Source: a virus
Strand: one strand, 5' to 3'
DNA: 64,000 bases
IMG/VR virus record: IMGVR_UViG_3300044956_001213
Coordinates: 1 to 64,000 of that record
The notes under the pieces: model-generated
What the model was told of the DNA's origin: nothing
What the model saw: the letters and a program-made list of their open reading frames with translations, nothing else
Database searches by the model: none
Part shown: one piece after another, positions 9,433 through 58,728 of the stretch
Layout: every line of letters starts with the position of its first letter
Position numbering within the stretch: the stretch's first letter is position 1
Made by a program: the position numbers and the translations under genes

Positions 9433-9460
9433 ATTTTAATATAGTATAAGTAAAAATCAA
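9433..9460 (-). promoter_or_regulatory. Sigma70-like promoter TTGATT-N16-TAAAAT
   Basis: The -35 box lies at 9455-9460 and the -10 box at 9433-9438, 6 bases before the GTG at 9426. The predicted transcript starts on the start codon. Confidence 0.65.
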
Positions 9461-9482
9461 AGATTTTTTTTAAAAAAATAAA

Positions 9483-11786
9483 TTAGTAATGAAATCTTAA
9501 AGTTATATTTGAAAGATCACCTGTGTCGATTAATTCAAAATCTTGTATATACACCTGCCAAGTACCGTTCGCATTTAATGATGAAATATTATTGTAAACA
9601 TCTAGAGTGGTGTTATATGGTCCAACGGGACAAGGCGCATCCATAGTAAATGTGTTGCCTATAGAATTTGGTCTATATGTTCCGCTGGAGAAACCATCCC
9701 AAAGCTGAGTAGCAGTTTGGTCAAGAACAACAGTAGTATTTTCTGCAGCGGTATTACCTATTCTACCGTTCAGTATGCTAGTTATACCTGTAGGTGATAC
9801 TAGTATTATAACAACATCTCCCATGAAAGTATGAGAGAGGTTGTTGAGTTGTACTGATACTCTCGAACTACTACTTACTAACCCGGAAACATTTATAGTA
9901 ACAGGGTATGTATCAGCTGTCTGACCATCTCTTAATATAATGTTGGAAGCATTATTGGACACAAAAGAATAATAATTAGGTATAGTGGGTGTGGGTGTCG
10001 CCGTAGAAGTCTCTGAAGGTGTGAAAGGTATAGTAGGCGTGTTTGTAGGTGTTTCCGTGGGGGTAGGTGTATTTGTCTTGGTTGAGGTCGGGGTAAGGAG
10101 AGGTGAAACCTCAAATATTCTAAGTTCTGCTGATTGTAAGGTACCAAAGTCACCACCAACTAGATCTTGAATAAACAACTTCCAAGTACCGTTTACTTCT
10201 GCAGGTGATATATATCCAAATGCATCATAAAGTGTAGTGCTGTGCGGACCTGAAGGGCATGGTGCGTCTAATATAAACTCATCAGAAATAGTATTTGGTT
10301 TAAATCTGCCAGAAGAATAACCATTCCATAGAGTCGGGGAATCGTCATCCAATAAAACATAAACATCTACTGCATTGAATGCACCTATTCTTCCAGATAT
10401 AACGCATGTTTTGCCTGTTGGTGAGACTAGTATCATAGCCACATCTGAAGGTGCAGTATGGTTATAACCGTTAAGCTTTATAGCTACTTTACTAATTGTA
10501 TTGGTAATACCAGATACATTAAATTCAACAGGATATGGTATAGATGCAGTACTATCGGGAATATCTATATTTGTAGCTGTAGATAAGAAGTTAATCCAAT
10601 CTGGTATAGTTGGTGTAACCGTATGTGTAGGGGTTTGTGTTCTCGTTGGTGTTTGTGTTCTTGTAGGTGTATTGGTAGATGTTTGTGTTCTGGTAACAGA
10701 AGGTGTAATAGAAATAGTAGGTGTCATAGTAGGTGTTTGTGTCATTGTGGGTGTTAAAGTTGGTGTTAAAGTTGGTGTTCTTGTATTTGTAGGTGTCTTT
10801 GTTGGCGTTTTTGTTGGTGTCGCTGTTTTTGTAGGTGTAATTGTCGGTGTTTTAGTAAGTGTCGTTGTTGGAGTAATGGTTAATGTAGCTGTTTTTGTTG
10901 GTGTAATTGAAATAGTGGGTGTGCGTGTTGGTGTAATTGAAATAGTGGGTGTGCGTGTCGGTGTAATTGAAATAGTAGGTGTGCGTGTTGGTGTAATTGA
11001 AATAGTAGGTGTAACAGTCGGCGTTACTGTTCTAGTTGGTGTAACAGTCGGTGTAACTGTAGGTGTTAAGAATATTCCATTTTCCTGAATATTCTTAACA
11101 GCAAAATTTGTTAATAATGCGCCGTTACTAAAAGATAATATAGGAGCAACACTAGCAGGTAAGCTTATAGGTAATTTTATATTTTTTAGTAATACAAACT
11201 TTTCATTAGGTTTTTTATGTTCAATAATCACATTATTACCTAAATTTGTTATTCTTATTCTAAATCTGCTAAATGGCTTGGCGCTTGGTGATTGAGTGTA
11301 TAGAGTAATATCTTCAAAGTCAGGATTGCCGCTAAGAGCGAACCTACCTATAGTATTAAAACCATTACTAGGACCCGATCTTAAAGTAATACTATTGGGC
11401 AACGCATCAGGATATCCATCAGTCAATATTAAATCGTCGCTACCGAAATTACCTGTAATATCAAAACCTATTATTAACGCGGTGTTAGCAATTCCAGGAT
11501 AATTTAGTCCTACTAAAATAATAAACGGTGGATACGGAATGTAAACTGCTGACTGTGCAAAAAGTGTACAGACACCTAGACCCGGTCCGGGGCCGCCATA
11601 TTTAAAACCATCTGTACCCCCATTGCTATCTATAAAAGTTAGCGCAAAACCTTCAGTCCCTGAAGAATAAGGACCGTAGCACGAATAATCAAAAGAAATT
11701 AAAACATCTTTAGTGGTATCAATAAACTTTAATGTTTTGTCGTAAATTAACCCTGTCTTATTGCTATCCGTAAGAGTAAATGGCAT
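9483..11786 (-). CDS. Multidomain adhesin: lectin-like domain, TPT linkers, two P-domains
   Basis: A 767-residue modular protein. Residues 1 to about 230 resemble a bacterial (legume-type) lectin sandwich, with [17 protein letters not shown] and a GFDITGNFG strand. Residues 240-395 are a TPT-rich linker with several near-identical 10-residue repeats. Residues 400-560 and 609-767 are two copies of a proprotein-convertase P/Homo-B domain ([30 protein letters not shown] and the matching second set). A second, short TPT linker joins them. No protease domain is present. It follows the gene 11790-14942 by three bases and is probably expressed late. The likely role is surface binding at the tail tip. 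The TPT linkers are good candidates for O-glycosylation by the adjacent enzymes. Confidence 0.8.
10901..11010 (-). repeat. 30-bp tandem repeats in the TPT linker
   Basis: Three full copies and a partial fourth of a 30-base unit with a few third-position differences. They encode [10 protein letters not shown]-type decapeptides. The whole Thr/Pro linker spans about 10600-11070, and a shorter one lies at 9970-10100. Confidence 0.9.
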
Positions 11787-11789
11787 ATA

Positions 11790-14700
11790 TTAGCTTCCTA
11801 AAATAAATGCTCCGTTTAAAATATTACCTGCACTGCTATTAAGTTGAAAAAACGTGCTGTAGTTGCTTAGCTGAGAAGAGGTTGTCAATAAGTTTAAAGT
11901 TTCTGTATTTGTCTGCATTTTAAACATTGTGTTAAATATATTAGTTATTATACCGTTTACGTATTTAAAGAAGATTTTAAATATATAAAATATATTTGAC
12001 AGGTCTTTACCGAGATATGTAATACAGTATAATTGTGTCTCATCATCGTAGCTAAATAATGGCTTATCGATTTCTACAATATTAAAATCAAGCCCTGTTC
12101 CAGAAAGAGAAAACATTTTTACATCATTAAAAGTTAAATTTTTAGATTTTATTGTTGGAAATAATTTTAATAATTCTACTGTACCCACATTAAATGAATA
12201 TATTTCGGGATAAATAGCTTTAAAATTAGTGCTACTTAAAGTGGGGTAAAGAACTGTTTTACAAAAAAATACAACATTATCTATTTCGCTATACCAAGCA
12301 GTTGAAATTTTTTCTAATTCTTTATTTTCACCTCTCTTTACAAAAGTATCATTTTTTGTTGTGTTATTAATAATGTTTGTTTTATAGTCAAACTTTATCT
12401 TGTCAAACAAAATATAATTTTCAGTTTCAAACTGAATAGTATCATAATAAACATCAAAGTTTATAAGGTTGTTATAAATTTCATTTACTATTTTATTATC
12501 ATACTTTACAAACATGCCGCTAAGAGCAGCTGAAACCGGTAGTATGATGGAGGAGTTGGAATTTCTGTAGTATAAATCACCGTAGTCAACATACTTTGTT
12601 TCGTACAAGCTTTTCTTTGTTGATAACCCCGTCACGCCATTAATAACAGTAGTTTTTCTTAATGGTATTCTGTAATCCAGATAGTTACTCTCTTCCACGT
12701 ACCTAACTACAAATTCTAAATCTGTACCGCATGGTTGTGCGCTGTTAGCTAAGAACACACTACCATCAATATCTACTAATGCAGAGACAGGCGGTTCAAA
12801 AGTAAATATACCAGGATTTATTATGTTAGGTACATAGTCTTCTTCTAAAGGTGTAGCACCTCCATCAAGTAACTCAGCATAATAAACATTAGAAAACTCA
12901 CTAAAGCCGGGTAAATCAGAAGGAAAATCTGGTAAAAGCCTAGGTCCTGCAGATCCTGGAGACGTAAATGTAACTCCGTCTCTAGAGCCACAAACAAATT
13001 TTATTTCAACCCTATCTGGACAATAAGTTTCAGGTTGAAACCTGTAAGATTGTAAAGGCACTTCTGCACCAGTAATTGCAAAATAGGGTATACCTTCTGT
13101 GTATTGAGATGCAGAAAGAGGAGAGGGGGTTAAATAATCTGGGCCTTGCGTGTAAAAACCTGTACCAGGCGGTATATTATCTACAGTTTTTAAAATTATA
13201 CCTGAAAATCCTTTCTCGGCATTTTCTTCACTGTAATCAAAATTAAACCCCGATACAGGGTCTTTAAATAAATGCCCATCTATTGATTTACAATAAATAA
13301 AAATAACATTTTCTTGTTTTGGCCTTTCATTTACAGGTATTTTTTCTGGGTGTACATCTTTGTATAGGCTAAATTCGTTACCATATATATCATTTTTATA
13401 TTGTACAACTGTTTTATTAATTGATAACAATTTATCAATTCTGTTATCTATAGGAAAAATATTTGACTCGTAAGAAAAAACATCTCGGTTAGCCCAAAAA
13501 GATTTAAACTCTCCGTTAAAAAAATCCTGAGGGTCTGTATATCTAGTAACACCTTGTACGCTTGTATTAAGTGATTGGTCTCTACTTTGATATCCTCTAA
13601 AAATTTGATAATAAGAGCTAGTATCGGGGTCACCGAATCTATATTGGTTAGAAAAATCAATTTTATTTAGATAGTTATATTCAAAAAAATCTAACGGTGT
13701 ATGGAAGGTTTCTTTAGTAAACCCTGTAATGTTTCCAAATTTGTAGGGATTTGGAAATATATAAATATTATTCGCACTTAATTTATTTAAATTGGTTTTA
13801 AATGTTTGTCCAAAATTATTAAAATTACAAAACCCAATTTTATCTGGCTTAAAAAATAAACCTATTTGTTTAGATGTTTTTGTAAAATCTACACTTGGTA
13901 TTGATGCAATAGAAGGGTATCGCTTATTAAGATAATTGGCGAATTCGTTTTCTGCAGTGAATAATACGCCAGAAACGTAATTTGTTTTAGTACTACCAGT
14001 TGAAAGAAAATAAAAATCAGTACCAATAAATTTTTGAATTTGACTCTTTAAAACATTTAAATTTAAATTGCTTTCTGCTCCAGTATTAACTGTATTTATA
14101 AAGTCAGAATCTTTGAGAAAGTTTAATTGGGTAGCGTCTACCTGGGGTGTTATAGTAAAATTATTAGTACCAAGTTCTATTAAAAAAAACGGATAAGATG
14201 TGATTGCATCAACTATAGTGCTATTAAAATTTAAAAATACGTCTTTATCTATTTCAAAGACATTTAATGAAAAATATTTTTCTCTATCTCCTGAAACGTT
14301 GTAAGCGGAAACAGGTACATTTGGACTTATATCTAAATAACCTGCATAGGTATCGTAAAGATCTTCAACATCAATTGTTGTATTATCTCTTACTTTAGCT
14401 AAATCTAAATTTAATGTTTTTATGAGGTCTGTTAAATCTCCTGTTTCTAATGACTTTGAAATTTCATTGTAAATAAGCTTCTCAATACCAAGATTTGATC
14501 CTTTTAAATTGTATCTTAAATTTGCTGTTGCTACATCATCGCGTAATGTACTATAGTAAAGACATATTTCTTTAATTTTTTGTGAAAAAAACGGAACAGC
14601 TACTGCAAGGTCTCTGTTATTATTTATATCTATATTTTTAAGAAATCGTCTTTCATCAGTTGAAGTAAAATTTAAAACTATTTCATTAATAAGATTGGTG

Positions 14701-14942: not shown

Positions 14943-14947
14943 TTAAT

Positions 14948-14954
14948 TATTTAG
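14948..14954 (-). promoter_or_regulatory. Late promoter box CTAAATA
   Basis: Ends 5 bases before the ATG at 14942. It overlaps the 3' end of the upstream gene. Confidence 0.55.
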
Positions 14955-17900
14955 TTGTTATATATTATGTTACTGCCGCTCAAAAACAGTCTTAATCCTT
15001 TAGTAAGCTCATAACTTAATATAGTTTGCATTATACCGCTATCTCTTCTCCATTCATCAAAAGAGCTGTTTTTAAATGATAGAGTAGTTAATATGTTGTC
15101 CCAATCTATTATATTGTTATAATAAGAACCCTCATACTCTAAATTAAAGCTAAAAAAATTATAGTAGTTTGATATTTTTATACCTGAAAGAGATCTGGGT
15201 GCAATTAACCCCCATCCCCAATCATAATTATATCCTGATAGTTTTATCTCTTGACCTAAAGTATAGCCTACTATATTATTTTGATTAACAAGAGTATAAA
15301 TATCAGAAAATATTTCTTGTGCAACTATAGGTACTCCTGATGAAATAACACTAGTTAAGGTTGAAAGTTGTGTTCCTAAATTACTAGGGACTTCAGAGTA
15401 TATACCAGTACCGGGTTTATAAAAATTATTAGAATATTGATTAATTTCGCCCCATAAATTTTTATGCTTTATTGAAAGAATATTTACTAACCTCTTAAGC
15501 TGCGGTGGGTAAGGGTAATTATATTGTTCAAATTGTATGGTTAACTCATCACAAAAAGAAATTAATTGATCTATATTAGTTTTATCGATATCAGAAACAT
15601 TCTCTACAAAATTTGCAATTTTTTCATAAACAGTCTTTCCTAATTCGTATGGCATTGCAGAAGCGCCACCTACTATAGTTCCAATAAAGTCGTTAAATAA
15701 TATAAGCTTATCTTCTAAATTTTCTGTAAAAATTAAAGAATTATAAAATTCATTTGCATTAAAATTTTCATTTACTTTATTAATGTTATATTTTCCTTTA
15801 TCGCTAAAAATATTAAACAAATTTGATTCACCTGTAATGGTTCTTACTTTTGTAGAGCTTCCCATATATTTATTAATCCATCTTGTACCTAACCAATCTC
15901 CGTAAGCTTGAAATTGTTTATCTTCAAAAGTTAGAGATGGGTTTTCAATACTATCTTCAGGAAAATAAAGAGGCTCATATTTAACTAAATTTTCACTAGT
16001 TGGAGGTGGTGTTAGCGTATCAATCATATAAAGTTTGTTAGTAAAATTGTTTATTATCCAGATATAATCAGAAGTGTCTATAGCTATGCCCCCTATACTA
16101 CCTATATAGTTTGTGTAATTACCTGTACCTGCAATATAGTTATCCACCTTCACACCATCAGCTCCTATAAGGGTAACGGTTTCCCTATCTTGAATTATCC
16201 AAGCATTTTGCTTGCTATCAAAAGTTAAATTACCTATGAAATTAAACCCACCTATAGGAAAGTTAGGATGTAAAATACCATTTGAATCAAACTTATATAA
16301 AAAGTCTTCTCTACCAGTAAGGCTTGTGACCGGGCCGCTTAAGTTAACATCATAATTATAAGCAGTAACCCAAACATTTTTATCTCTATCGACAACAGCC
16401 TCTACAGGGGTTATTAAAGCCGGAAAATTAATCACTTTTAATACACTGCCGTTTGTATCGTATTTTACTAAAAAGTTTGAAACAGGGTGTGTATATGTTA
16501 CCCATATGTTATTATCAAAATCTGTGTCTATACTTGAAGGTAGTAGTAAATTTTCTCCAGCGTATCCTTTTAAAGCGTTAATATTGTAATCGGAGCTTAA
16601 ATAATAAACAAAATTGCTTGTATTAGGATACGCTACTGCTTTTACACCGCCTGTGTTTCTATCAATTTTTATACAAGAAACTGAATCAAATAAAGCGACC
16701 CATAAATCGCTATTTCCATCTAAAGCTATGCTACCAGGAGCAGCACTAGACAGCACCGGTGAAAGCAGATTTCTGTAAGTTAACTTATTTCCAGATAATA
16801 TTGGGTAATTAGAAAAGCTAAAAGAAGAAAGTATTACACCTCTAGCGTCTAGTTTAAACAGCGTATCTTTTGAACCATCTGCAAACCATGTATGATAGTC
16901 GCCCATAAACCCCCCGCTGCCGGAAGGTGCTACCTGAATGGCGTATACATTTCTATTTTCATAATTATAAATAAAGCTTTGAACTGACGTGAGTGTCATA
17001 GTGAGCACACCTGGACAATTTGTATAAATTTGACGATTAAAAAATCTTACTAACTGATTGTATTGAGGTGCAGCAATCCAACCCAAAATAGAGTCTTTTG
17101 TATAATTAGGGGGATCAACGATAGTTACGGACGCTGTGAGCTTTGCATTTACTGTACTACTATTTGGTATAAAATATCCTTTATAAAAAGCGCCTATAGA
17201 TTGTGGGGTGTCTGTAGAAAAATCTTGATAGAAATTTACAGTACTAAGTCTCTTAAATGTAGTACCGTTTTGAGTAACTAAATCAAATTTAACATCAAAT
17301 GAAGTAAGGTAAGATATATTTGTATCAATTGTGCTGGAAGAAAGTGGTGGATAGGATTTTGTGGTAAAATTATTAACATCCTTTAATCTTATTACAAACG
17401 GAATTTCAGTATTTTGCCAGCTTATTTCAGGTATGTTAAATTTAGTAGTTGAAAGTGTGCCCTCACCAATAATACCAGTGGTAGAAATACTAAGATATTC
17501 CGCAGGGTTATGTCTAATTTTAACTATGGGATAAACTGAAGGTCTTAAATTATTGTACCCGTATGGCGGGTATTGTACGTATTCATAGGAATTATTGTAA
17601 GTTGTATATTTATCGTTTAATTTTGAATTGTCTAAAATACCGTACAAAAATATAGGTTGATCTCTACCACTATAATTTTTTACTCTATCATCTGCATAAT
17701 AAAATTCGCAAGACCCTGAAGTACCAGCAAAAACACTACCCTCATCTTCTTTTTTACAAATTTGTAATTTATTATTAAAAATTCTTGTATAAATTTCTGT
17801 ATTAGAGGTTTTTATTTTATCTATTAAAATATATTCTTCATTTCCTTGAATACTATTGATCCTATAAAATCGACTTAGTGATCTTAAATGTGACCATTTG

Positions 17901-20271: not shown

Positions 20272-20272
20272 A

Positions 20273-20755
20273 TTAATTATTTACAAAGTTGAACCCAGTA
20301 TTACTTAATACCCCTACTAATTTAAAGCTAATAGGATCTATTGCTAGCATTGTTAATATAAGGGTAATTACATACTGTTGATTTACTTCATCAGTAGCTA
20401 CATTTATATTTTCAATCTTTACTCTTGGTTCAAATGTGTTTATTCCTCTTAAAATTTCGTTACCTATGGCTAATCCTGTATCTTCATTTACAGGTAAAAA
20501 TAAATATTTTTGCACTCCTAATCCAAAATTTGGGTTTAAAATACGCTGACCTGGTATAGTTGTAAGGATATTGTAGATAGAGTTGCGTATAGCAGCGTAG
20601 TCATAATCAATTTTAAGGTCTTTTATTTCTTTTTTCTTTAAAAACTCATTACTTTTAGTAAAATCGAGTTTAATATCAAGAAGTAAATCAGTATATGTAA
20701 AGTTGCTTTTAGCTCTTGCAGGCTGTTGAATAGACTGTACCTTTATTGTTGCCAC
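20273..20755 (-). CDS. 25: Baseplate wedge protein gp25-like
   Basis: A 160-residue gp25/lysozyme-like wedge protein that links the sheath-initiating ring to gp6. Diagnostic residues are IPGQRILNPNFGLGVQKYLF at about 88-107, which contains the conserved R-x-(L/M)-x-P-x-(F/Y)-G core, and the later FEPRVKI strand. The start is GTG at 20755, chosen because an ATAAATA box ends 5 bases upstream. An overlapping ATG at 20757 would be out of frame. It is the first gene of the wedge operon that continues into gp6. Confidence 0.88.
   Translation of the reverse strand: MATIKVQSIQQPARAKSNFTYTDLLLDIKLDFTKSNEFLKKKEIKDLKIDYDYAAIRNSIYNILTTIPGQRILNPNFGLGVQKYLFLPVNEDTGLAIGNEILRGINTFEPRVKIENINVATDEVNQQYVITLILTMLAIDPISFKLVGVLSNTGFNFVNN
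20278..20284 (-). promoter_or_regulatory. Late promoter box GTAAATA
   Basis: Ends 6 bases before the ATG of gp6 at 20271. It lies within the end of the gp25 gene. Confidence 0.55.
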
Positions 20756-20760
20756 ATAGT

Positions 20761-20767
20761 TATTTAT
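20761..20767 (-). promoter_or_regulatory. Late promoter box ATAAATA
   Basis: Ends 5 bases before the GTG of the gp25 gene at 20755. The predicted first transcribed base is the start codon. Confidence 0.7.
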
Positions 20768-20812
20768 GTCATTTTTATTTTTTTAAAAATAGTTTTATTT
20801 GCATAAAAAGTA

Positions 20813-20819
20813 ATAAATA
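20813..20819 (+). promoter_or_regulatory. Late promoter box ATAAATA
   Basis: Ends 6 bases before the ATG at 20826. It is back-to-back with the gp25 late promoter, 46 bases away on the other strand. Confidence 0.7.
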
Positions 20820-22805: not shown

Positions 22806-22832
22806 ATTATAGCATATATTTGTATAAATCAA
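22806..22832 (-). promoter_or_regulatory. Sigma70-like promoter TTGATT-N15-TATAAT
   Basis: The -10 box at 22806-22811 ends 6 bases before the ATG at 22799. The -35 box is at 22827-22832. It is divergent from the late promoter of 22853. Confidence 0.6.
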
Positions 22833-22840
22833 TACTATTA

Positions 22841-22847
22841 TTAAATA
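22841..22847 (+). promoter_or_regulatory. Late promoter box TTAAATA
   Basis: Ends 5 bases before the ATG at 22853. Confidence 0.55.
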
Positions 22848-22852
22848 TTGTT

Positions 22853-23329
22853 ATGAGTGAAGAGCTAAACGAGATGGTAGGTGATTTGCTAGAACAACTA
22901 CAAGATGCTAACAAAAAAGCGGAAGAAATAAAAAAAGAAACTAACCCATTAACTAAAGAAAATATGGAAAAGTTTGTAGTTGAAAAAGCTGGAAGATTGG
23001 TAGAGGAAAGTTTAGACGTAGTTTCTAACGTAAAAGAATATATTTCTAGTGCTCCTGAAAGTAAGGATGTAGGATCTTTAGCTGAATTAATTGCAGCTAC
23101 ATCTACGGCAATAGAGACTTTAAATAAAATTATAGTTACTGATAAGAAAAATGAAACTATTATTAAAGCTAAGGAGATGGATATAGCCTCTAGAAAAGAG
23201 TTAAAAAAAGCTGATAATACTACTAAACTTTTAACCACACGAGAACAAATTTTCAAGATGTTAATAGATAGTGCAAATCAGAGTGCAAAGATAATTGACG
23301 CAGAAATAATCGAAGATAAGAATAATTAA
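22853..23329 (+). CDS. Helical protein, possible small terminase subunit (gp16-like)
   Basis: A 158-residue, highly charged, mostly helical protein. The start at 22853 is fixed by a late box 5 bases upstream. The middle (SLAELIAATSTAIETLNKI, then EMDIASRKELK) has the two-helix pattern seen in small terminase subunits of T4-like phages, which form rings that help gp17 package DNA. The size is also right (T4 gp16 is 164 residues). The resemblance is in pattern rather than in a diagnostic motif, and the gene is far from gp17, so another coiled-coil virion protein is possible. Its stop overlaps the convergent hub gene by four bases. Confidence 0.5.
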   Translation: MSEELNEMVGDLLEQLQDANKKAEEIKKETNPLTKENMEKFVVEKAGRLVEESLDVVSNVKEYISSAPESKDVGSLAELIAATSTAIETLNKIIVTDKKNETIIKAKEMDIASRKELKKADNTTKLLTTREQIFKMLIDSANQSAKIIDAEIIEDKNN

Positions 23330-27438: not shown

Positions 27439-27446
27439 TATTTATA
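27439..27446 (-). promoter_or_regulatory. Late promoter TATAAATA
   Basis: Perfect T4 late consensus, ending 5 bases before the ATG of the gp53-like gene at 27433. Confidence 0.75.
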
Positions 27447-30655: not shown

Positions 30656-30662
30656 TATTTAA
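30656..30662 (-). promoter_or_regulatory. Late promoter box TTAAATA
   Basis: Ends 6 bases before the ATG of the tape-measure gene at 30649. Confidence 0.5.
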
Positions 30663-30676
30663 AGAAAAACGTGGGT

Positions 30677-31431: not shown

Positions 31432-32280
31432 CTATTTAGTTGGCGGTCCCTGTTTTTCAATTGGAAATGATTTAGCCTGCTCTTCATTTAATTTCTTTAC
31501 TTCAGCTTCATAAATATTGGCTAATACTAAGTTTTCTGCTAATGTGTTCTTATCTACATATTCTGGTGAATAAAACATTTTACTTACAAGTAAGTATTGA
31601 AGTTCCATTATGCTTTTTAAATTAGCAGAATACAGAGCTTTTAAAATTTCAATGAAAGACAGATTAAAGGGTGTGATTGTTATCTTTTCTTCTTTAGATA
31701 AGCCTATATTAAGTACTATTTTTTTAAACATCTCTGTAGTTTCATCGGCAAATTTTTTTAAATGATTAGTAATTTCCGCGGGAAGCATTTCAATTAGCTT
31801 AGATCGATCGTGTGGATATACTATCTCTTTTTCATTATAAAATACCTTATTAATACTATCATAATAAATGTCAAACATATTTTCAAAGGCTAATTGCTTA
31901 GGTAGTGATAATGTAATTTTTATATTCTCATCCAATTTAATAGTTTTTAAAAAATCAATTTTAAAATCTAAACAAGTTTTAAGAAAAGGCATTAAAGAAG
32001 CTTTAGAGTTAATTTTATCTTTTTTAAATTCAACTTCTGGTGAAACACTTATACATCTTAATAAAAACAAAGCACAAAATTTATCAAAATTTGTTAATTG
32101 AGTAAAAAATTCTTTTTCTATTAAACAATCATTTAAAATAACATCAAAATATTCTGAAATATGAAAATTATTATTGTTAATTAAAAATTTGTTTAAAATT
32201 CTATATTTTTCAAAACTAACTTCTTTTAGTTTTAAGCTTTTGTTTAATGTAGGTGAGTCAAAATTTAAGTAAAATTCCAT
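31432..32280 (-). CDS. Probable tail assembly protein
   Basis: A 282-residue, mostly helical protein without a diagnostic motif. The layout is similar to that of the next gene: a short beta N-terminus (FDSPTLNKSLKLKEVSFEKY), then helices, then a C-terminal FNLSFIEILKALYSANLKSI helix. It may be a distant partner or paralogue of 30677-31426 in hub or tail assembly. It is read in tandem with the tube-fold gene 32282-33190, with one base between them. Confidence 0.5.
   Translation of the reverse strand: MEFYLNFDSPTLNKSLKLKEVSFEKYRILNKFLINNNNFHISEYFDVILNDCLIEKEFFTQLTNFDKFCALFLLRCISVSPEVEFKKDKINSKASLMPFLKTCLDFKIDFLKTIKLDENIKITLSLPKQLAFENMFDIYYDSINKVFYNEKEIVYPHDRSKLIEMLPAEITNHLKKFADETTEMFKKIVLNIGLSKEEKITITPFNLSFIEILKALYSANLKSIMELQYLLVSKMFYSPEYVDKNTLAENLVLANIYEAEVKKLNEEQAKSFPIEKQGPPTK
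31433..31439 (-). promoter_or_regulatory. Late promoter box CTAAATA
   Basis: Ends 6 bases before the ATG at 31426 and overlaps the stop codon of the upstream gene. Confidence 0.5.
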
Positions 32281-33195: not shown

Positions 33196-33202
33196 TATTT
33201 AT
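33196..33202 (-). promoter_or_regulatory. Late promoter box ATAAATA
   Basis: Ends 5 bases before the GTG at 33190. It overlaps the end of the tail-tube gene. Confidence 0.7.
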
Positions 33203-33747
33203 CCAATATTACGCCAGTAGTGATAAGAAACGGTAGCAGTGAATTCAATTGTTTCACCAGTACCAGAAGCTATATTATAGGTAATAGGACCTACATTGCG
33301 TACTGATACACCAACTAATTGATATTGAGCTACTTTATTAAGCTGATTATCTAGCTGTACTAAATCCATAATAGCTGTCTGCTTAGGTGCAAAGTAATTA
33401 CCGGTTGAATTAGCATCATTAAAAATGTCAAACGACCATTGTTCAAATTTTTGACGGATTTGTGAATTAGCATCAGCATAAAATGTAAGGTCATACGCAT
33501 CACTACCCGGGTATTGAGAGACACCAGGAATATTAAAGTTTAACCCCATATAAGGTACTTCTACATTCTTAATTGAACGTGCGGGTAAGGTAGCAGTTTT
33601 TACAAAAACTAAATCATCTTGATCAAACGTCACATTACTTGCGCCACCAGTATTAATTGATAATACTCTAAAATTAAAATCGCGTGCGAATTCACGAGTA
33701 GCTGCTACTCTGTAAAAATCTGTAATAAGTTGATTTACGTCTGCCAT
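33199..33747 (-). CDS. 19: Tail tube protein gp19-like
   Basis: A 182-residue tube monomer. Features of the gp19/Hcp-type fold are FVKTATLPARSIKNVEVPYMG at about 48-68 (the conserved Leu-Pro loop), then DLTFYADANSQIRQKFEQW, and a terminal strand EFTATVSYHYWRN. It directly follows the sheath gene, as in T4, where the order is gp18 then gp19. The late box ATAAATA lies 5 bases before the ATG and a second overlapping copy just upstream. Confidence 0.85.
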   Translation of the reverse strand: MADVNQLITDFYRVAATREFARDFNFRVLSINTGGASNVTFDQDDLVFVKTATLPARSIKNVEVPYMGLNFNIPGVSQYPGSDAYDLTFYADANSQIRQKFEQWSFDIFNDANSTGNYFAPKQTAIMDLVQLDNQLNKVAQYQLVGVSVRNVGPITYNIASGTGETIEFTATVSYHYWRNIG

Positions 33748-33752: not shown

Positions 33753-33759
33753 TATTTAT
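33753..33759 (-). promoter_or_regulatory. Late promoter box ATAAATA (doubled)
   Basis: Ends 5 bases before the ATG of the tube gene at 33747. A second overlapping copy is at 33757-33763. Confidence 0.7.
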
Positions 33760-33772
33760 TTATCTATTATGA

Positions 33773-36085: not shown

Positions 36086-36092
36086 TATTTAT
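36086..36092 (-). promoter_or_regulatory. Late promoter box ATAAATA
   Basis: Ends 6 bases before the ATG of the sheath gene at 36079. Confidence 0.7.
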
Positions 36093-36121
36093 GTTTTTTC
36101 AGATAAAACTTTTAATTTTTT

Positions 36122-36741: not shown

Positions 36742-36748
36742 TATTTAT
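36742..36748 (-). promoter_or_regulatory. Late promoter box ATAAATA
   Basis: Ends 5 bases before the ATG at 36736. It lies over the end of the terminase gene. Confidence 0.7.
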
Positions 36749-38463
36749 CTTAATTGACGCCAGCCCTGAGCTTCTAAATCATTTATTTCATTATAATTGT
36801 TAGAATTATCACCTTCAATAACTATAGGAAGCGGTGGAATACCATCATGATAATTTTTTTCGTTACTATAAATTGAAGCAGGATTAATAAAATATTTTAT
36901 ACCATAATCTAACGATTTAAGTTTTAATGGTTTTTGATTGTTGTCGTATTGAGCTATTTCAAAATATTTTTCAACTAGACCGTTTTCTAGTATTATTAAT
37001 GCCCATAATAAACTCATCACTCTATCGTCCCAACTGTCTACACCTTGCTTTGCAGCCCACGTACCGTTTGGATATCTTACAAATCCTTTTAATTCGTTTA
37101 AAGTTTTCATATCTCTAATTTTTAAAACTTTTAACTCTGATAACCAATATCTCATATTTATAACACCCTTGTATTTTGTGTTAGTATGAGCTTGTACACC
37201 AATTTTATTAAAACTTACAGGACCTGCCTTTATACCATATGAAACTATATTTTCATACCCTAATGTATTTTTAAGTTGATCTACCACTTGAGCGCCGCAA
37301 TTGTTTCTTTCTATTAAAGCAAAAGGTGATCCCCAATGTTTTAAGATTTCGTGCAACTTAGTTGTAAAATTGTAGGGGCTAATTGTACGGTCATGATAAA
37401 TGGCTACTTGTTTAATTTCTCTAAGATCGGTAATATCTAAAATCTGTATTACGCTTGCTGCTTCGCCGACACCCTCACTTATATCAACACCCGCTACATA
37501 TATGTGATCTTTATCAGGTTCATCCCACATTAAATATTTTCCTTCTTCAAAAATAAAATTAGGTTCAATACATTCTAATCTCATTTCTTCGAAAAGCTTT
37601 TCATCTAATGCGCTCTCCCCAGCTTGTAAGAAAACATTTCCAAATTCCTGATCGAAAACTTCTCTACTACCTAGAGTACGAATAGTTTTTTCTTTCCACG
37701 CATTATCTCGCCCAGGAAACTCCCACCAATCAACCTTTTCGGCATGCCAATCGTTTTTACCTTCTATAGCGCCTGAATAAAGTTCATGAAAAAGATTATC
37801 TGTTCCGTTTGGTGTTGAAGCAACAAATATCTTAGACTTTTTAGAAGATGAAATAATAGGATATACAGAGCTCCAGAATTGCTCAACAAGATGATTGTCA
37901 ATAAATGCCAACTCGTCCAAAATAAGAACATTACAGCTATCACCTCGCCCAGCATCGCTACTAGTCGTTGAAATACCGATACTAGATCCATTTCCTAGCG
38001 ACATTGACGTTTTTCCGTATTCTACTGTTCCAGGTTTTAAGTAGTTAGGTAGTTTCTCATAAGCTAAACGAACTCTCTTAAAAATATTAATAGCAGTTTG
38101 TTCTTTGTTAGCTACAATAAGAATACGCTGATCTTCAAAAAAGCTAGCAATCCATAGAGCATATATTGTCATAAGAGTGGTTTTTCCAATTTGGCGACTT
38201 GCTAATAAACAAACAAACCTATTATCTCTTAAACTCCTTAAAATGCGTTTTTGATACGAATGTAACTTAATTTTTATTTTACCTTCATCTAGATTTGTTA
38301 TAAAAAAGAAGTTTTCTGCAAAATAAAGAATATTTTTTCTACACTTAGCTATATCTTCAATCCATTCCGGATGTGCTTCATAATCAAATACCGCATCTGT
38401 ATTGGGTAAATTTTGATTACCTAAATAAAATTGACTTTCTTGTTTTTTAAGCATATATAACAT
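36745..38463 (-). CDS. 17: Terminase large subunit gp17-like
   Basis: A 572-residue packaging motor. The ATPase domain has Walker A SRQIGKT at 89-95 and Walker B LILDELAF at 180-187, followed by the coupling motif ASTPNG. The nuclease domain begins near 324 with VAGVDISEG, whose Asp is the first metal ligand, and further acidic residues follow (SWDDRVMSL near the end). Two start codons are possible (38463 or 38454). The first is used here. The start region overlaps the late promoter of the divergent gene 38475-39392. Confidence 0.93.
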   Translation of the reverse strand: MLYMLKKQESQFYLGNQNLPNTDAVFDYEAHPEWIEDIAKCRKNILYFAENFFFITNLDEGKIKIKLHSYQKRILRSLRDNRFVCLLASRQIGKTTLMTIYALWIASFFEDQRILIVANKEQTAINIFKRVRLAYEKLPNYLKPGTVEYGKTSMSLGNGSSIGISTTSSDAGRGDSCNVLILDELAFIDNHLVEQFWSSVYPIISSSKKSKIFVASTPNGTDNLFHELYSGAIEGKNDWHAEKVDWWEFPGRDNAWKEKTIRTLGSREVFDQEFGNVFLQAGESALDEKLFEEMRLECIEPNFIFEEGKYLMWDEPDKDHIYVAGVDISEGVGEAASVIQILDITDLREIKQVAIYHDRTISPYNFTTKLHEILKHWGSPFALIERNNCGAQVVDQLKNTLGYENIVSYGIKAGPVSFNKIGVQAHTNTKYKGVINMRYWLSELKVLKIRDMKTLNELKGFVRYPNGTWAAKQGVDSWDDRVMSLLWALIILENGLVEKYFEIAQYDNNQKPLKLKSLDYGIKYFINPASIYSNEKNYHDGIPPLPIVIEGDNSNNYNEINDLEAQGWRQLR

Positions 38464-38468
38464 AAATA
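38462..38468 (+). promoter_or_regulatory. Late promoter box ATAAATA
   Basis: Ends 6 bases before the ATG at 38475. It lies on top of the start codon of the divergent terminase gene. Confidence 0.7.
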
Positions 38469-39445: not shown

Positions 39446-39447
39446 GC

Positions 39448-39454
39448 TTAAATA
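39448..39454 (+). promoter_or_regulatory. Late promoter box TTAAATA
   Basis: Ends 5 bases before the GTG at 39460, directly behind the terminator. Confidence 0.6.
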
Positions 39455-41892: not shown

Positions 41893-41920
41893 ATTATATA
41901 ATATTATTACTTTTTATCAA
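41893..41920 (-). promoter_or_regulatory. Sigma70-like promoter TTGATA-N16-TATAAT
   Basis: The -10 box is 41893-41898, 6 bases before the ATG at 41886. The -35 box is 41915-41920, inside the end of the upstream late gene. Confidence 0.7.
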
Positions 41921-42301: not shown

Positions 42302-42308
42302 TATTTAT
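42302..42308 (-). promoter_or_regulatory. Late promoter box ATAAATA
   Basis: Ends 5 bases before the GTG at 42296. Confidence 0.7.
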
Positions 42309-42317
42309 TCAAATAAA

Positions 42318-42324
42318 ATAAATA
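42318..42324 (+). promoter_or_regulatory. Late promoter box ATAAATA
   Basis: Ends 5 bases before the ATG at 42330. It is back to back with the minus-strand late box at 42302-42308. Confidence 0.7.
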
Positions 42325-43758: not shown

Positions 43759-43786
43759 ATTATAGTCAAAAATCTATAAAAAACAA
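43759..43786 (-). promoter_or_regulatory. Sigma70-like promoter TTGTTT-N16-TATAAT
   Basis: The -10 box is 43759-43764, 6 bases before the GTG of the primase gene at 43752. The -35 box is 43781-43786. Confidence 0.7.
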
Positions 43787-43986: not shown

Positions 43987-43993
43987 TATTTAT
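43987..43993 (-). promoter_or_regulatory. Late promoter box ATAAATA
   Basis: Ends 5 bases before the ATG at 43981. Confidence 0.7.
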
Positions 43994-44004
43994 GCTAATG
44001 ATAT

Positions 44005-45460: not shown

Positions 45461-45812
45461 AGTTATTTAATCCTTTTGACAAGTATCTATTGCGGCCATG
45501 GTAATCTATATTATTTGAAACACCATGTCTAATCAAATAATCAATAATGACTTCTATACTGTCTGTTTTAATATAGAAATTTTTAGGTATTCTTCTGCCA
45601 CCATCATTAAATTCAAACAAAACTTCGTTTATATTTTCTTTATTTAAATAACAAGTAATTAAAACAGAAGATTCGCTAGGATTGACCATTACAGTCCACT
45701 GTCTGGGATCTTGCTTAGAATATACATTAAAAATTTTAATTACAATAAACCCATTATCGCGTAGCCTCTTTATAAAATAACTAGGTGTGCGTACTTTATT
45801 TTTGCTGCTCAT
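45438..45812 (-). CDS. Conserved-looking unknown protein downstream of the clamp gene
   Basis: A 124-residue protein beginning RTPSYFIKRLRDNGFIVIKIFN, followed by DPRQWTVMVNPSESSVLITCY and FEFNDGGRRIPKNFYIKT. The compact alternating pattern suggests a small alpha/beta domain. Its length equals T4 RegA and its position near gp45 is similar, but I see no sequence match to RegA. Its ATG overlaps the stop of the gp45 gene by one base, so the two are translated together. Confidence 0.6.
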   Translation of the reverse strand: MSSKNKVRTPSYFIKRLRDNGFIVIKIFNVYSKQDPRQWTVMVNPSESSVLITCYLNKENINEVLFEFNDGGRRIPKNFYIKTDSIEVIIDYLIRHGVSNNIDYHGRNRYLSKGLNNYDEKQVI

Positions 45813-46543
45813 TAATTTGCTAAAGCAGATATAATAAATTTAAACTTTGCAATATCAAAGGTTAAATCAAATGTAACTACTCCTAATTTTGTTATTATTT
45901 GAGAATTTATTTCATTAAATCTCATAGAAGAAATTATTCTAAATACTTCAAAATTCAAGGGTACCGGGACAGCAAACTGTGTTCCTTCATAGCTTGAAGA
46001 TATATTAATACCATAAGAATCAACATTAGGGCGCATTTTATCAGTAAGTTCACCATATACAATATTGTCCTTTACCGAAAGATAAACTTTGTTCGTCTCA
46101 GTAGTAATAGAACTCCCTTTAATTAATCCTAATAATGAGTTATATGTGAATGAAAATTTACCGTCAAATTCAAAAGCTTTTAGCTTATCGATATTAAGCT
46201 TTGGCGATGAAATAATATTATCATCGAACAAATAATATTTAAATCTTACGTTAGATGATTTATAGCCTATAAAATTCGAAGATATGTCGAGCTCTATAGA
46301 TTTTTCCTCTATGCAAGAAATGACTCTACAAAGCTTTTTTAAGTCAGGAATATTAAGTGTTTTAAAAGATATATTTTCCGACTCTATATATTCTGAAAAA
46401 ACAATAACTGTATTATCAGAAGTTGATACTAAAGAAGTAATTTTTTCTTTATCGATTTTTACTACTGCGCTATCTGAAATTTTGCTTAATGGTATTAAAA
46501 AATTATTTAAAAATTTCTCTCTGTCAGCTATCTTGAGCATCAT
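45812..46543 (-). CDS. 45: Sliding clamp gp45-like
   Basis: A 243-residue trimeric clamp subunit, close to T4 gp45 (228). It has the doubled PCNA-type layout, with KIADREKFLNNFLIPLSKISDSAV at the N-terminus and VTFDLTFDIAKFKFIISALAN at the end. It tethers DNA polymerase, and in T4 it also activates late promoters bound by gp55 with gp33. The ATG at 46543 is supported by a TTGAAA-N16-TATTAT promoter with 6 bases between the -10 box and the start. A second ATG follows at once (46540). Confidence 0.88.
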   Translation of the reverse strand: MMLKIADREKFLNNFLIPLSKISDSAVVKIDKEKITSLVSTSDNTVIVFSEYIESENISFKTLNIPDLKKLCRVISCIEEKSIELDISSNFIGYKSSNVRFKYYLFDDNIISSPKLNIDKLKAFEFDGKFSFTYNSLLGLIKGSSITTETNKVYLSVKDNIVYGELTDKMRPNVDSYGINISSSYEGTQFAVPVPLNFEVFRIISSMRFNEINSQIITKLGVVTFDLTFDIAKFKFIISALAN

Positions 46544-46549: not shown

Positions 46550-46577
46550 ATAATAACATACATATATACTATTTCAA
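46550..46577 (-). promoter_or_regulatory. Sigma70-like promoter TTGAAA-N16-TATTAT
   Basis: The -10 box 46550-46555 ends 6 bases before the ATG of the gp45 gene at 46543. The -35 box 46572-46577 overlaps the end of the upstream gene. Confidence 0.6.
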
Positions 46578-47833: not shown

Positions 47834-47840
47834 AAAAAAG

Positions 47841-47868
47841 ATAATAGCATAAACTATTTTTAAATCAA
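47841..47868 (-). promoter_or_regulatory. Sigma70-like promoter TTGATT-N16-TATTAT
   Basis: The -10 box 47841-47846 ends 7 bases before the ATG of the gp32 gene at 47833. The -35 box 47863-47868 overlaps the stop of the upstream gene. Confidence 0.65.
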
Positions 47869-48998: not shown

Positions 48999-49032
48999 TG
49001 TCAAAATTTAATTATTGAATATGAACAAGAAA

Positions 49033-50361: not shown

Positions 50362-50368
50362 CTATATA

Positions 50369-50396
50369 ATAATATATTAAACTTTAAATTAATCAA
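50369..50396 (-). promoter_or_regulatory. Sigma70-like promoter TTGATT-N16-TATTAT
   Basis: The -10 box 50369-50374 ends 7 bases before the ATG of the helicase gene at 50361. The -35 box 50391-50396 overlaps the upstream stop codon. Confidence 0.65.
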
Positions 50397-51753: not shown

Positions 51754-51760
51754 AGTAATA

Positions 51761-51767
51761 ACCTCCT
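51761..51767 (-). promoter_or_regulatory. Shine-Dalgarno AGGAGGT before an AUU start
   Basis: The only perfect ribosome binding site noticed at a gene start in the window. AGGAGG is separated by 8 bases from the ATT at 51753. Confidence 0.85.
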
Positions 51768-51772
51768 GATTT

Positions 51773-51800
51773 ATTATATTTAAAAGAATAAATAATTCAA
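51773..51800 (-). promoter_or_regulatory. Sigma70-like promoter TTGAAT-N16-TATAAT
   Basis: The -35 box is 51795-51800 and the -10 box 51773-51778. Start of transcription is predicted at about 51766, giving a 13-14 base leader that is just the Shine-Dalgarno site and its spacer. It overlaps the late box of the divergent gene 51802. Confidence 0.65.
51788..51794 (+). promoter_or_regulatory. Late promoter box ATAAATA
   Basis: Ends 7 bases before the ATG at 51802. It lies inside the spacer of the divergent sigma70-like promoter. Confidence 0.65.
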
Positions 51801-51801
51801 G

Positions 51802-52698: not shown

Positions 52699-52700
52699 TT

Positions 52701-52922: not shown

Positions 52923-52928
52923 TAATAA

Positions 52929-52935
52929 TTAAATA
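52929..52935 (+). promoter_or_regulatory. Possible late promoter box TTAAATA
   Basis: Ends 9 bases before the ATG at 52945, further than at the other late genes. Confidence 0.4.
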
Positions 52936-52944
52936 ATTTAGTAT

Positions 52945-55679: not shown

Positions 55680-55685
55680 ACTCTT

Positions 55686-55713
55686 ATTATAAAGAAAGTA
55701 GAATTAAAAACAA
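55686..55713 (-). promoter_or_regulatory. Sigma70-like promoter TTGTTT-N16-TATAAT
   Basis: The -10 box 55686-55691 ends 6 bases before the ATG of uvsX at 55679. The -35 box is 55708-55713. Confidence 0.7.
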
Positions 55714-55721
55714 GTAATAAA

Positions 55722-56072
55722 TTATTCGTCAAATAACTTAATAACAGGCTCATGAGAAGTGACAGCAGGAGCCTTACCAAAAAGTTTATTATACTGATCT
55801 AAGAGCCTAGTATCGTTATCAATATCTACACCTAAAACAATACTAGCAAGATTGAACTTCCAGACTGTACCTTCGTTGCGGGCCTTTTCACCGACAAACT
55901 CTCTAAAAAAGACAGGAATTGTCTGAACGTTAAGCTGTCCGTTCTGTGTGGGTTGCACGTGAATAATGGCGGGATTCTTAACAGTTAATGTAGTTTTGTC
56001 TACAGAAACTTGCTCCGCTAAAATTGTTCTTCCAATATGGTCAATAAATGTTACAATAGTTGTATCGTTCAT
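55722..56072 (-). CDS. Unknown small beta-rich protein
   Basis: A 116-residue protein with IVTFIDHIGRTILAEQVSV, then KNPAIIHVQP and VQTIPVFFREFV, an order of strands like that of a small Sm-like barrel. The end is acidic and mixed. Its function is unknown. The composition is relatively GC-rich and the promoter TTGATT-N16-TAAAAT sits 6 bases from the ATG, so it is probably an early, well-expressed protein. It lies between DNA polymerase and uvsX. Confidence 0.65.
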   Translation of the reverse strand: MNDTTIVTFIDHIGRTILAEQVSVDKTTLTVKNPAIIHVQPTQNGQLNVQTIPVFFREFVGEKARNEGTVWKFNLASIVLGVDIDNDTRLLDQYNKLFGKAPAVTSHEPVIKLFDE

Positions 56073-56078
56073 GTAGTT

Positions 56079-56106
56079 ATTTTATATTAGTGTAGAGTAA
56101 AATCAA
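56079..56106 (-). promoter_or_regulatory. Sigma70-like promoter TTGATT-N16-TAAAAT
   Basis: The -10 box 56079-56084 ends 6 bases before the ATG at 56072. The -35 box is 56101-56106. Confidence 0.65.
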
Positions 56107-56108
56107 CA

Positions 56109-58694
56109 TTATTCGTGTAATAATGCAAATAAATCGGTTTGAACTTGGCTACCGGGTGACTGAAGCTTCCAGCCTACCGCCTCATAAAACCTTTCAATAG
56201 AAGAAAAAATAATTTTTTTAAACATTAGCTCGTGATCAATTTCAAATATCTCTGCAAACTCTTTTGGATATGTATATTTGTAACCTATTGTTGATATACC
56301 AAACCGGTTTGGTTGCTTTGCATAAAAAAATCTTACTTTATCACCGGAAGATATCTTTTCATACTTTTTTCCTGTATTAAACCTATCTAAAAGTAAATTG
56401 TAAAAGTAAGCTGCTTTAACGTGAATAGGCATATGCTTAACAGTTTTAAATCCTTCACACTGTGCAGAATACTTTTCATATCCTTTTATACCCATTACAA
56501 AAGCTATATCTTCTGCTAAAAGATTTTTGAAAATGTCATATGTTTCGTTAAATATTTTGTTAGTCTGAGCTAAGTCTTGAGTCATTAGCATTGTTTCAAT
56601 AATCTTCTTCACATACGGTTTGATAGGAGTTGGCATAGTGGTTCTTACAACCTCTACACCAGTATACTTAAACTTATCACAAGGTATGCCTTCTTCATCT
56701 AGCACATGTAAAACATATCTTTTCTTCTGAAGAAAGAGTCCTACATCTGCTATAGTTTCTCTCTTAAAATTTAGCCTGCAATCTTGAGAGCCTAATGCTA
56801 ATTGTCCCCACTTCATAATATTTTCGTTTAAGTGGTCTTCTATATCTCGTACTTGTTTATAGTATTCAGATGTAATTCTTCCTTTACTATCAAACATCTT
56901 TAATCCTGTTTTCCTTACAAGATATTTAATTGAAACATATGAGCTATCAGTATCATTATAGATAATGGGTGTATCGTTCTTTAAATCATCATCAGATAAA
57001 TTTGCTTTGTTTTTAATATACTCTTCAAGTAGTCTATTTGATTCCTTAATAACAGCTTGCCCGGTTAGTGTAATTGATTCTGCTAGTTCGTCGTCACCTA
57101 GAGGGCTATGTTTGTTACCAAAATAGCCGTAGATTGTATTAATTAAAATCTTTATAGTATGTTGAGTAATATTTAAATTTTCTATCTGAAGTTTAAGCTT
57201 TTGATAATCGCTTGTTGTTTTATCTAGTGTAATAAGTTTTCTTTTTGCTACAGCTAGCTGTTTTTTAATGGCAACGCGCTTTTTATAAAAATGATCTACG
57301 GTTTCAGGTATAATACCTTTCTCTTTTTGTGTAAAAAGTACTTTAGCCTTAGAAATGGCTATTTTTTCTTTTTCAATAAAATCTACGAAATGTTTATTAG
57401 AAAGTTTAAACGTTTGACCATTTACGTGTTGTAATGTTATCTCTTTATCTGTCCTATCTACAATTACACCTACTTTTGTTTCGGGAGATAAGTTTAGCGT
57501 TATCATAACGTTAGGATACAGGCTATTAGCATCAAACGATACAACGTTTTCTTGAATCCCTTTCTTAGGATCACTAACATAAGCTCCAGCATTTTGTTCA
57601 TCGCTTGTATGCGTTTTATTAAAGGTAGGTATGCGCTGGTTTCTCATCCTAGCTCTAATTGCGCATAGTCCTGTAATAACAGACAATGATCCTAGCGCGC
57701 CTTCGAAAGTAGTTAACCCCGCGTATGCTATTATTCTTAAAAGCTTCAAATATTGAAGCTTTTCTTCTAGTCTAACAAGAAGATTTACGTCCTGAATGTT
57801 ATATTGTACAAATAATTCCCAGTTTTCATCAGCTAGACTGGTAAGATTTGTATCACCGTAATCAATCTTATTCTCACCTAATTCTGTCTCACCAATTGCA
57901 TCTAGTTTGTATGATTCTCTTAGTGCAGGGCAAAAACGCTTATAAATATCTAGATAGTCAACACACGAAATACCTTCAATATGCCAATGCACTTGCTCTT
58001 TACCGAACTTACCTTTAAATACTATAGGTCTTATATAGCCAACCGGAGAAAGCTTCTTAACCTCATCTTCACCTAAAATTCTTGTTATTCTATTGATAAT
58101 ATAAGGGACATCAAAGAATTCACTGTTCCATCCAGAAAGTATATCTGGGTAATCGGAGATAAAATAACTTATAAATTTTGAAAGTAATTCTTTTTCCGAC
58201 TTACAGTGAATGTATGTTGAATGCTCTCTATTATTATAATATGTCTTCAGCCCCCACGTGATAAAGTGCTTTCTCAAAGTATCATAAACGGTAATAATGT
58301 TTATGGGATGTTGCGGATCGTCAGGCTTAGGAAACTCATCTGGGCTATAAGTTTCAATGTCAATAAACAAAACTCTAATAGGGTGTTTTGAAAATTCTTC
58401 GTTTTCATACTCGTTCCAAAAACTGTCTATCAGAAATTGTTGCTGAATGTTTAAATTTTCAAATATTCTAATAATTTTATTATTTTTCAAATACCTTGAG
58501 CGTTCGGCTTGATTGCGAAACTTTTTCTTTTTGAGTTTTGTATTAAATATACTGGTAGTATCGGGTTTATTATTTGTTTCTAGATAAATGTAAGGCTCGA
58601 AAGTGGTATCTAAAGCAACGCGTTTACCCTCACTATCCCAGGTAAAAAGACGCATAAGCTGGCTTTTTGGTAAATATGCAACATTTCTGTACAC
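56109..58694 (-). CDS. 43: DNA polymerase gp43-like (family B)
   Basis: An 861-residue family B polymerase with proofreading. The exonuclease motif Exo I is IDIET at 111-115, with Exo II in GWNSEFFDVPYI near 191. Polymerase motif A is SFDANSLYPNV near 385, motif B is LINTIYGYFGN near 515, and motif C is YNDTDSSY near 578. The C-terminal peptide QTDLFALLHE resembles the clamp-binding tail of T4 gp43 and fits the bacterial QxxLF rule. The start is GTG at 58694, chosen because TATAAT lies exactly 6 bases upstream. Confidence 0.95.
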   Translation of the reverse strand: MYRNVAYLPKSQLMRLFTWDSEGKRVALDTTFEPYIYLETNNKPDTTSIFNTKLKKKKFRNQAERSRYLKNNKIIRIFENLNIQQQFLIDSFWNEYENEEFSKHPIRVLFIDIETYSPDEFPKPDDPQHPINIITVYDTLRKHFITWGLKTYYNNREHSTYIHCKSEKELLSKFISYFISDYPDILSGWNSEFFDVPYIINRITRILGEDEVKKLSPVGYIRPIVFKGKFGKEQVHWHIEGISCVDYLDIYKRFCPALRESYKLDAIGETELGENKIDYGDTNLTSLADENWELFVQYNIQDVNLLVRLEEKLQYLKLLRIIAYAGLTTFEGALGSLSVITGLCAIRARMRNQRIPTFNKTHTSDEQNAGAYVSDPKKGIQENVVSFDANSLYPNVMITLNLSPETKVGVIVDRTDKEITLQHVNGQTFKLSNKHFVDFIEKEKIAISKAKVLFTQKEKGIIPETVDHFYKKRVAIKKQLAVAKRKLITLDKTTSDYQKLKLQIENLNITQHTIKILINTIYGYFGNKHSPLGDDELAESITLTGQAVIKESNRLLEEYIKNKANLSDDDLKNDTPIIYNDTDSSYVSIKYLVRKTGLKMFDSKGRITSEYYKQVRDIEDHLNENIMKWGQLALGSQDCRLNFKRETIADVGLFLQKKRYVLHVLDEEGIPCDKFKYTGVEVVRTTMPTPIKPYVKKIIETMLMTQDLAQTNKIFNETYDIFKNLLAEDIAFVMGIKGYEKYSAQCEGFKTVKHMPIHVKAAYFYNLLLDRFNTGKKYEKISSGDKVRFFYAKQPNRFGISTIGYKYTYPKEFAEIFEIDHELMFKKIIFSSIERFYEAVGWKLQSPGSQVQTDLFALLHE

Positions 58695-58700
58695 AAAAGT

Positions 58701-58728
58701 ATTATAACAGCTTTATTTCAAAGTACAA
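58701..58728 (-). promoter_or_regulatory. Sigma70-like promoter TTGTAC-N16-TATAAT
   Basis: The -10 box 58701-58706 ends 6 bases before the GTG of the polymerase gene at 58694. The -35 box 58723-58728 follows the stop of the small membrane gene. Confidence 0.7.

Follow-up and report, generated by a model that had tools for sequence, protein, structure and literature searches.

T4 serves as the textbook example of how phages express their genes. In promoters of the sigma70 type the -10 box lies at positions -12 to -7, counted from the transcription start. Among phages, mRNAs that start at their initiation codon are known from lambda, where cI is a single leaderless mRNA, and from the Thermus phages phiYS40 and P23-45, which have leaderless middle and late transcripts. 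The late transcription system of T4 has three parts, gp55, gp33 and gp45 (PMC2988020); its late boxes extend from -13 to -6 of the transcription start (PMC1524935). In cyanophages the late box has the form NATAAATA (PMC2984593). For the leaderless genes of Actinobacteria, Deinococcus-Thermus and other groups, the accepted in silico signature is the lack of a Shine-Dalgarno (SD) site together with a -10 box that precedes the start codon by about 10 bp (Zheng et al. 2011, PMC3160421). A report of a leaderless T4-like phage was not found in the open-access papers searched. The sequences analysed here point to a lineage of uncultivated aquatic T4-like phages that very probably (probability about 0.92) expresses its genome from leaderless mRNAs, early and late genes alike.

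The window, i.e. the whole stretch of DNA that was analysed, comprises 64,000 of the 70,117 bases of the IMG/VR virus record IMGVR_UViG_3300044956_001213, which derives from a T4-like phage. Its GC content is 31-32%, the regions upstream of genes are rich in A+T, and the ORF map shows genes packed in long same-strand runs. The 64 genes of the window were defined by a mechanical rule under which every ORF begins at its first possible start codon (the longest-ORF start). The window phage and nine relatives, each represented by most of its record, form a ten-genome set with a total of 1,410 ORFs; these relatives share ancestry, so that the counts given below are not statistically independent, and noise in ORF calling depresses the reported fractions. 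One relative of 193 kb (record G008, loci L085-L087) carries 22 tRNA genes, mostly clustered, and the window carries none. Promoters of the sigma70 type were scored at each offset d, defined as the number of nucleotides between the end of the box and the start codon.

The first-pass annotation had listed ten gene starts in the window with a promoter of the pattern TTGNNN-N15/16-TANNAT, and a direct scan recovered all of them (Table 1). In eight genes the -10 box ends at d = 6 and in two, gp32 and gp41, at d = 7. As had been stated, five have a perfect TATAAT and five a TTGATT as -35 box, and an SD site is visible in none of the ten. The spacer is 16 nucleotides in nine promoters, dut alone having 15. 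With longest-ORF starts, a setting that misses dut because it starts at an inner codon, nine window genes have an early promoter at d = 6-7; 500 dinucleotide shuffles averaged 0.22 such genes and never gave more than 3. The name gp45 for one of the products agrees with its predicted model (pLDDT 88.7), which matches PCNA-type clamps with E values of about 1e-12. The glycosyltransferase gene (8137-9426, minus strand) matches, among phage records, only the jumbo phages XacN1, CM1 and RAS14, with 42-46% identity.

Across the 1,410 ORFs of the ten genomes, the sigma70-type promoters peak sharply at d = 6 (91 genes), with 12 genes at d = 5, 14 at d = 7, a minor peak of 27 at d = 8, and about 0-8 per offset past d = 12. 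The enrichment at offsets 6-7 that the first-pass annotation had anticipated is thus found genome-wide. Of the 97 -10 boxes at d = 6, 56 have a TTG at spacer 16, whereas among 241 -10-like hexamers at d = 30-45 only 10 do; because TTG favours this spacer, the start-proximal boxes are promoters and not merely AT-rich start contexts. Conversely, if the sequences are aligned on the correctly spaced TTG alone, with the -10 box left unspecified, the columns spell TATAAT. The early class therefore has a TTG -35 element at a fixed distance from TATAAT, with spacer 16 dominant, as in sigma70-type promoters. In another relative (L095, about 4000-6700, record G009), a run of short ORFs, each preceded at d = 6 by a similar strong early promoter of the TTGACT-N16-TATAAT type, resembles a region for host takeover.

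A second class of boxes, about 20 in the window at offsets 5-7, had been overlooked in the first-pass annotation. An unbiased positional 6-mer scan of the ten genomes returned TAAATA ending 5 nucleotides before the start codon 145 times, with 5.5 expected. Searching the 1,410 ORFs for the box NNTAAATA and its variants gave peaks at d = 5 (164 genes) and d = 6 (84 genes), with 38 genes at d = 7; for both classes the counts at control offsets are close to zero. In the ten-genome set this class outnumbers the early one. In the window, 17 genes have the box at d = 5-6, whereas the shuffled sequences (500 shuffles) gave 0.44 on average and never more than 4. The TAAATA-type element is the late box of the T4 family, and boxes of the TATAAATA/NATAAATA type stand upstream of virion genes. 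Of the three components of T4 late transcription, the window encodes two: a gp55 homologue (PHROG 234; 33-38% identity to three gp55 homologues), which is the predicted reader of the late boxes, and a PCNA-type clamp, presumably the gp45 co-activator. The claim of a leaderless early programme is supported as to leaderless reading and too narrow in scope, the programme being early plus late. At 22806-22853 the dut early promoter (minus strand) and the late box of a 169-aa ORF (plus strand) are squeezed into about 45 bp.

Table 1. Coordinates of promoters, late boxes and selected genes in the window; d, nucleotides between box end and start codon.
Feature	Position	Strand	Details
Early promoter, glycosyltransferase (start 9426, GTG)	9433..9460	-	-35 TTGATT 9455-9460, -10 TAAAAT 9433-9438, d = 6
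Early promoter, dut (start 22799)	22806..22832	-	TTGATT N15 TATAAT, d = 6
Early promoter, 144-aa ORF (start 41886)	41893..41920	-	TTGATA N16 TATAAT, d = 6
Early promoter, primase (start 43752, GTG; primase by PHROG)	43759..43786	-	TTGTTT N16 TATAAT, d = 6
Early promoter, gp45-type sliding clamp (start 46543)	46550..46577	-	TTGAAA N16 TATTAT, d = 6
Early promoter, gp32 SSB (start 47833; gp32 by Pfam)	47841..47868	-	TTGATT N16 TATTAT, d = 7
Early promoter, gp41 helicase (start 50361)	50369..50396	-	TTGATT N16 TATTAT, d = 7
Early promoter, uvsX (start 55679)	55686..55713	-	TTGTTT N16 TATAAT, d = 6; kept in relatives
Early promoter, 116-aa ORF (start 56072)	56079..56106	-	TTGATT N16 TAAAAT, d = 6
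Early promoter, gp43 DNA polymerase (start 58694, GTG)	58701..58728	-	TTGTAC N16 TATAAT, d = 6
Late box TATAAATA	7984..7991	-	d = 5 to GTG 7978
Late box ACTAAATA	14948..14955	-	d = 5 to ATG 14942
Late box TGTAAATA	20278..20285	-	d = 6 to ATG 20271 (gp6-like)
Late box CATAAATA	20761..20768	-	d = 5 to GTG 20755 (gp25)
Late box AATAAATA	20812..20819	+	d = 6 to ATG 20826
Late box ATTAAATA	22840..22847	+	d = 5 to ATG 22853; divergent from dut early promoter
Late box TATAAATA	27439..27446	-	d = 5 to ATG 27433
Late box TTTAAATA	30656..30663	-	d = 6 to ATG 30649
Late box ACTAAATA	31433..31440	-	d = 6 to ATG 31426
Late box GATAAATA	33196..33203	-	d = 5 to GTG 33190
Late box AATAAATA	33753..33760	-	d = 5 to ATG 33747
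Late box CATAAATA	36086..36093	-	d = 6 to ATG 36079 (gp18 tail sheath)
Late box GATAAATA	36742..36749	-	d = 5 to ATG 36736
Late box CATAAATA	38461..38468	+	d = 6 to ATG 38475
Late box CTTAAATA	39447..39454	+	d = 5 to GTG 39460
Late box AATAAATA	42302..42309	-	d = 5 to GTG 42296
Late box AATAAATA	42317..42324	+	d = 5 to ATG 42330
Late box CATAAATA	43987..43994	-	d = 5 to ATG 43981
Late box ATTAAATA	45464..45471	-	d = 6 to second ATG 45457 of ATGATG start
Late box AATAAATA	51787..51794	+	d = 7 to ATG 51802
Sliding clamp, PCNA-type fold	45812..46543	-	fold match of predicted model
Ribosomal protein bS21 homologue, 70 aa	48503-48715	-	Pfam E=4.5e-7, below curated cut-off; overlaps upstream gene
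gp55-type late sigma factor	63002..63595	-	PHROG 234 E=3e-26

The two classes are divided by gene function, early boxes standing upstream of replication genes and late boxes upstream of virion genes. When 40 gene families of the window were traced across the ten genomes, DNA polymerase, uvsX, gp32, gp41, the clamp, primase and dut were early or unassigned and late in none, and gp18, gp19-like, gp25, gp53-like and other genes of the virion region were late or unassigned and early in none. The offsets persist among relatives at 48-60% protein identity. In about 70 uvsX relatives, with identities down to about 48%, the -35 box, the -10 box and the distance to the ATG are kept while the spacer sequence diverges; for gp18, 23 of 25 distinct relatives have the late box at d = 6, and the remaining two have it at d = 7 and d = 9. 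Directly upstream of the gp18 late box, most relatives have a conserved AAAAGTTTTATC-like stretch (36094-36119 in the window, and L148-L221). In some distant uvsX relatives (at L069, L072 and loci related to them) the offset of the early -10 box is 8-9 instead of 6, possibly reflecting a 2-nucleotide leader or a shifted start.

If the start codon supplies the first transcribed base, the expected offset is 5 for a late box and 6 for a -10 box, and the observed peaks differ by this same one base. Since the T4 late box spans -13 to -6 and the sigma70 -10 box -12 to -7, both peaks place +1 on the start codon. RNA polymerase is able to select start sites over a few bases, and real promoters could thus start transcription 1-3 nucleotides up- or downstream of the start codon and yield minimal leaders or mixed ends; the minor peaks at early d = 7-9 and late d = 7 fit this, and the 38 late genes at d = 7 and 27 early genes at d = 8 could mean leaders of 1-2 nucleotides or shifted transcription starts. 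However, the main early peak is one base wide, each class peaks at its own, separately predicted position, and the bases around the start also speak against leaders, so that we regard this alternative as unlikely. GTG starts make up 19% of the early genes (d = 6) and 31% of the late genes (d = 5), as against 6% of the other genes; TTG starts fall to 0-1% in the promoter-bearing classes, the TTG share of the other genes being inflated by ORF calling; and a T precedes the start codon, at -1, in 60-70% of promoter-bearing starts. The rise of GTG, the loss of TTG and the T at -1 fit what is expected if transcription begins on the purine of the start codon.

Both elements of the in silico signature of leaderless genes (PMC3160421) are present: the boxes have a fixed position, with peaks at d = 6 for early and d = 5-6 for late genes, and SD motifs are found in 4-14% of genes in the ten leaderless genomes, which equals the background in control windows. 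Where the gap to the preceding same-strand gene is 4-30 nucleotides, 50-65% of genes carry a start-proximal promoter (0-5% in shifted controls), compared to 8% where genes touch or overlap (gap of at most 3 nucleotides). From this we infer two alternatives for each gene, a leaderless start or coupled translation. Among genes with an upstream gap or a divergent neighbour, about one third to two thirds have no recognised box, some of them being miscalled ORFs. A block of glycosyltransferase-like and hypothetical genes at 4248-7780 (minus strand) has no recognisable early or late boxes and is a real exception, possibly a recent import that uses other signals. The long same-strand gene runs make transcription from upstream likely, and most protein could accordingly come from longer read-through transcripts, with leaderless messages from the start-proximal promoters a minority of expression. 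However, SD sites are missing inside such read-through transcripts too, which would leave internal starts without a standard signal, and the offset is conserved over large divergence; we therefore judge this alternative to be unlikely.

In a TerL tree with named members of Kyanoviridae and Straboviridae, all ten leaderless genomes form one clade of their own (support 100/100), the closest named TerL being that of phiM9 at about 41% identity. Ten T4-like phages, each represented by a single 49-kb stretch, served as comparators: T4, S-PM2, Mosig, B23, phiM9, C48C1, XG4, Mel-JY01, AG-345-L05 and CP21. All members of this set, which includes cyanophages and one pelagiphage, have leaders and SD sites: only 0-3.5% of genes have a box of either class at the leaderless offset, late boxes lie 10-45 nucleotides upstream of the start, and 23-63% of genes have SD motifs. 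Among the phages sampled, the leaderless trait is restricted to one clade, and judged by these ten comparators such a programme is indeed unusual among T4-like phages, as had been stated. A non-promoter origin of the boxes, as context for translation initiation or as a product of AT-rich composition, could appeal to the 31% GC genome and its A+T-rich upstream regions, but the -35 TTG at a fixed spacer, the division of the two classes by gene function, the near-zero dinucleotide-shuffle expectation and equally AT-rich T4-like phages without the pattern make this next to impossible. Hardly any room is left, either, for miscalled start codons with the true starts downstream behind SD sites and ordinary leaders, to which mechanical calling of the first start codon might have led, since the peaks stay in place when the count is restricted to the 395 ORFs that offer just one candidate start within their first 120 nucleotides, and N termini conserved over tens of relatives fix the uvsX and gp18 starts.

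The prediction of leaderless mRNAs is thus supported by the offset geometry of two independent promoter classes, the clade-wide loss of SD sites, conservation, start-codon usage and ten negative comparators. In the proposed mechanism, host RNA polymerase would transcribe the early and replication genes from sigma70 promoters (TTGA-N16-TATAAT) with the -10 box ending 6 nucleotides before the start, and gp55-directed polymerase would transcribe virion and other late genes from NNTAAATA boxes ending 5-6 nucleotides before it. In both classes the transcript would begin with the first base of the ATG or GTG, and ribosomes would start on this 5'-terminal codon, probably by leaderless initiation of the 70S type. 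Genes without a promoter of their own, which mostly touch or overlap the upstream gene, are presumably translated by coupling. With leaderless starts on the one hand and coupling on the other, SD sites would be dispensable and could be lost. A branch of T4 relatives that is present in many metagenomes thus appears to have moved its early as well as its late promoters up to the start codon and to have dropped its ribosome-binding sites, and gp55 late promoters are predicted to be able to drive leaderless genes. The lineage would offer a naturally occurring test case for the regulation of a large genome with almost no 5' UTR, and the boxes abutting the start provide a usable rule for correcting start-codon and promoter calls in these phages.

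Such a programme points to a host with unusual translation initiation, which probably tolerates leaderless mRNA well. Searches of genome contigs for this host with a uvsX profile and DegT aminotransferase gave no match. WhiB is absent and photosystem D1/D2 is absent as well, and there is thus no mark of an actinobacterial or cyanobacterial host. A Bacteroidota host is disfavoured: the sigmaA consensus of this phylum includes a TAnnTTTG -7 box and its leaderless share is low, at 5.5% (PMC9723704), whereas the promoters found here are of the wrong type, the TAnnTTTG box giving 7, as against 246, TTG-N17-20 matches and no positional peak.

A bS21 homologue is encoded in 9 of the 14 clade records, i.e. 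the window and eight other genomes, and the copy in L228 stands behind a late box at d = 6. Control searches in Corynebacterium, Thermus and Deinobacterium gave no match. The phage gene suggests that the host possesses bS21 and argues against hosts without it. bS21 in aquatic phages was already known (PMC6375957; PMC9723584), and as the sole cause of the leaderless trait it was rejected, because Mosig and Mel-JY01 encode bS21 yet keep SD sites. Searches for two possible aids to leaderless translation, a MazF-type nuclease and IF3, gave no match. It is conceivable, though we think it decidedly improbable, that the lineage steers ribosomes to its own leaderless mRNAs and that phage bS21, as a neighbour of the anti-SD site, contributes to this by shutting down SD-led translation of host messages.

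Compared to known systems, the lineage shares with the gp55/gp33/gp45 late transcription of T4 and cyanophages (box TATAAATA or NATAAATA) the late box, a gp55 homologue, a PCNA-type clamp and the placement of boxes upstream of virion genes (PMC2988020; PMC2984593). It differs in that T4, S-PM2, B23, Mosig and the six others have the box 10-45 nucleotides away and a leader, whereas here the box abuts the start codon and SD motifs are at background. With the leaderless genes of Actinobacteria and Deinococcus-Thermus it has the -10 position and the absence of SD sites in common; unlike these, it is a lytic phage genome with two temporal promoter classes, one of them predicted to be read by a phage sigma factor. 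Lambda cI, phiYS40 and P23-45 likewise have phage transcripts that begin at the start codon, but they belong to other phage groups with other RNA polymerase strategies and are not T4-like.
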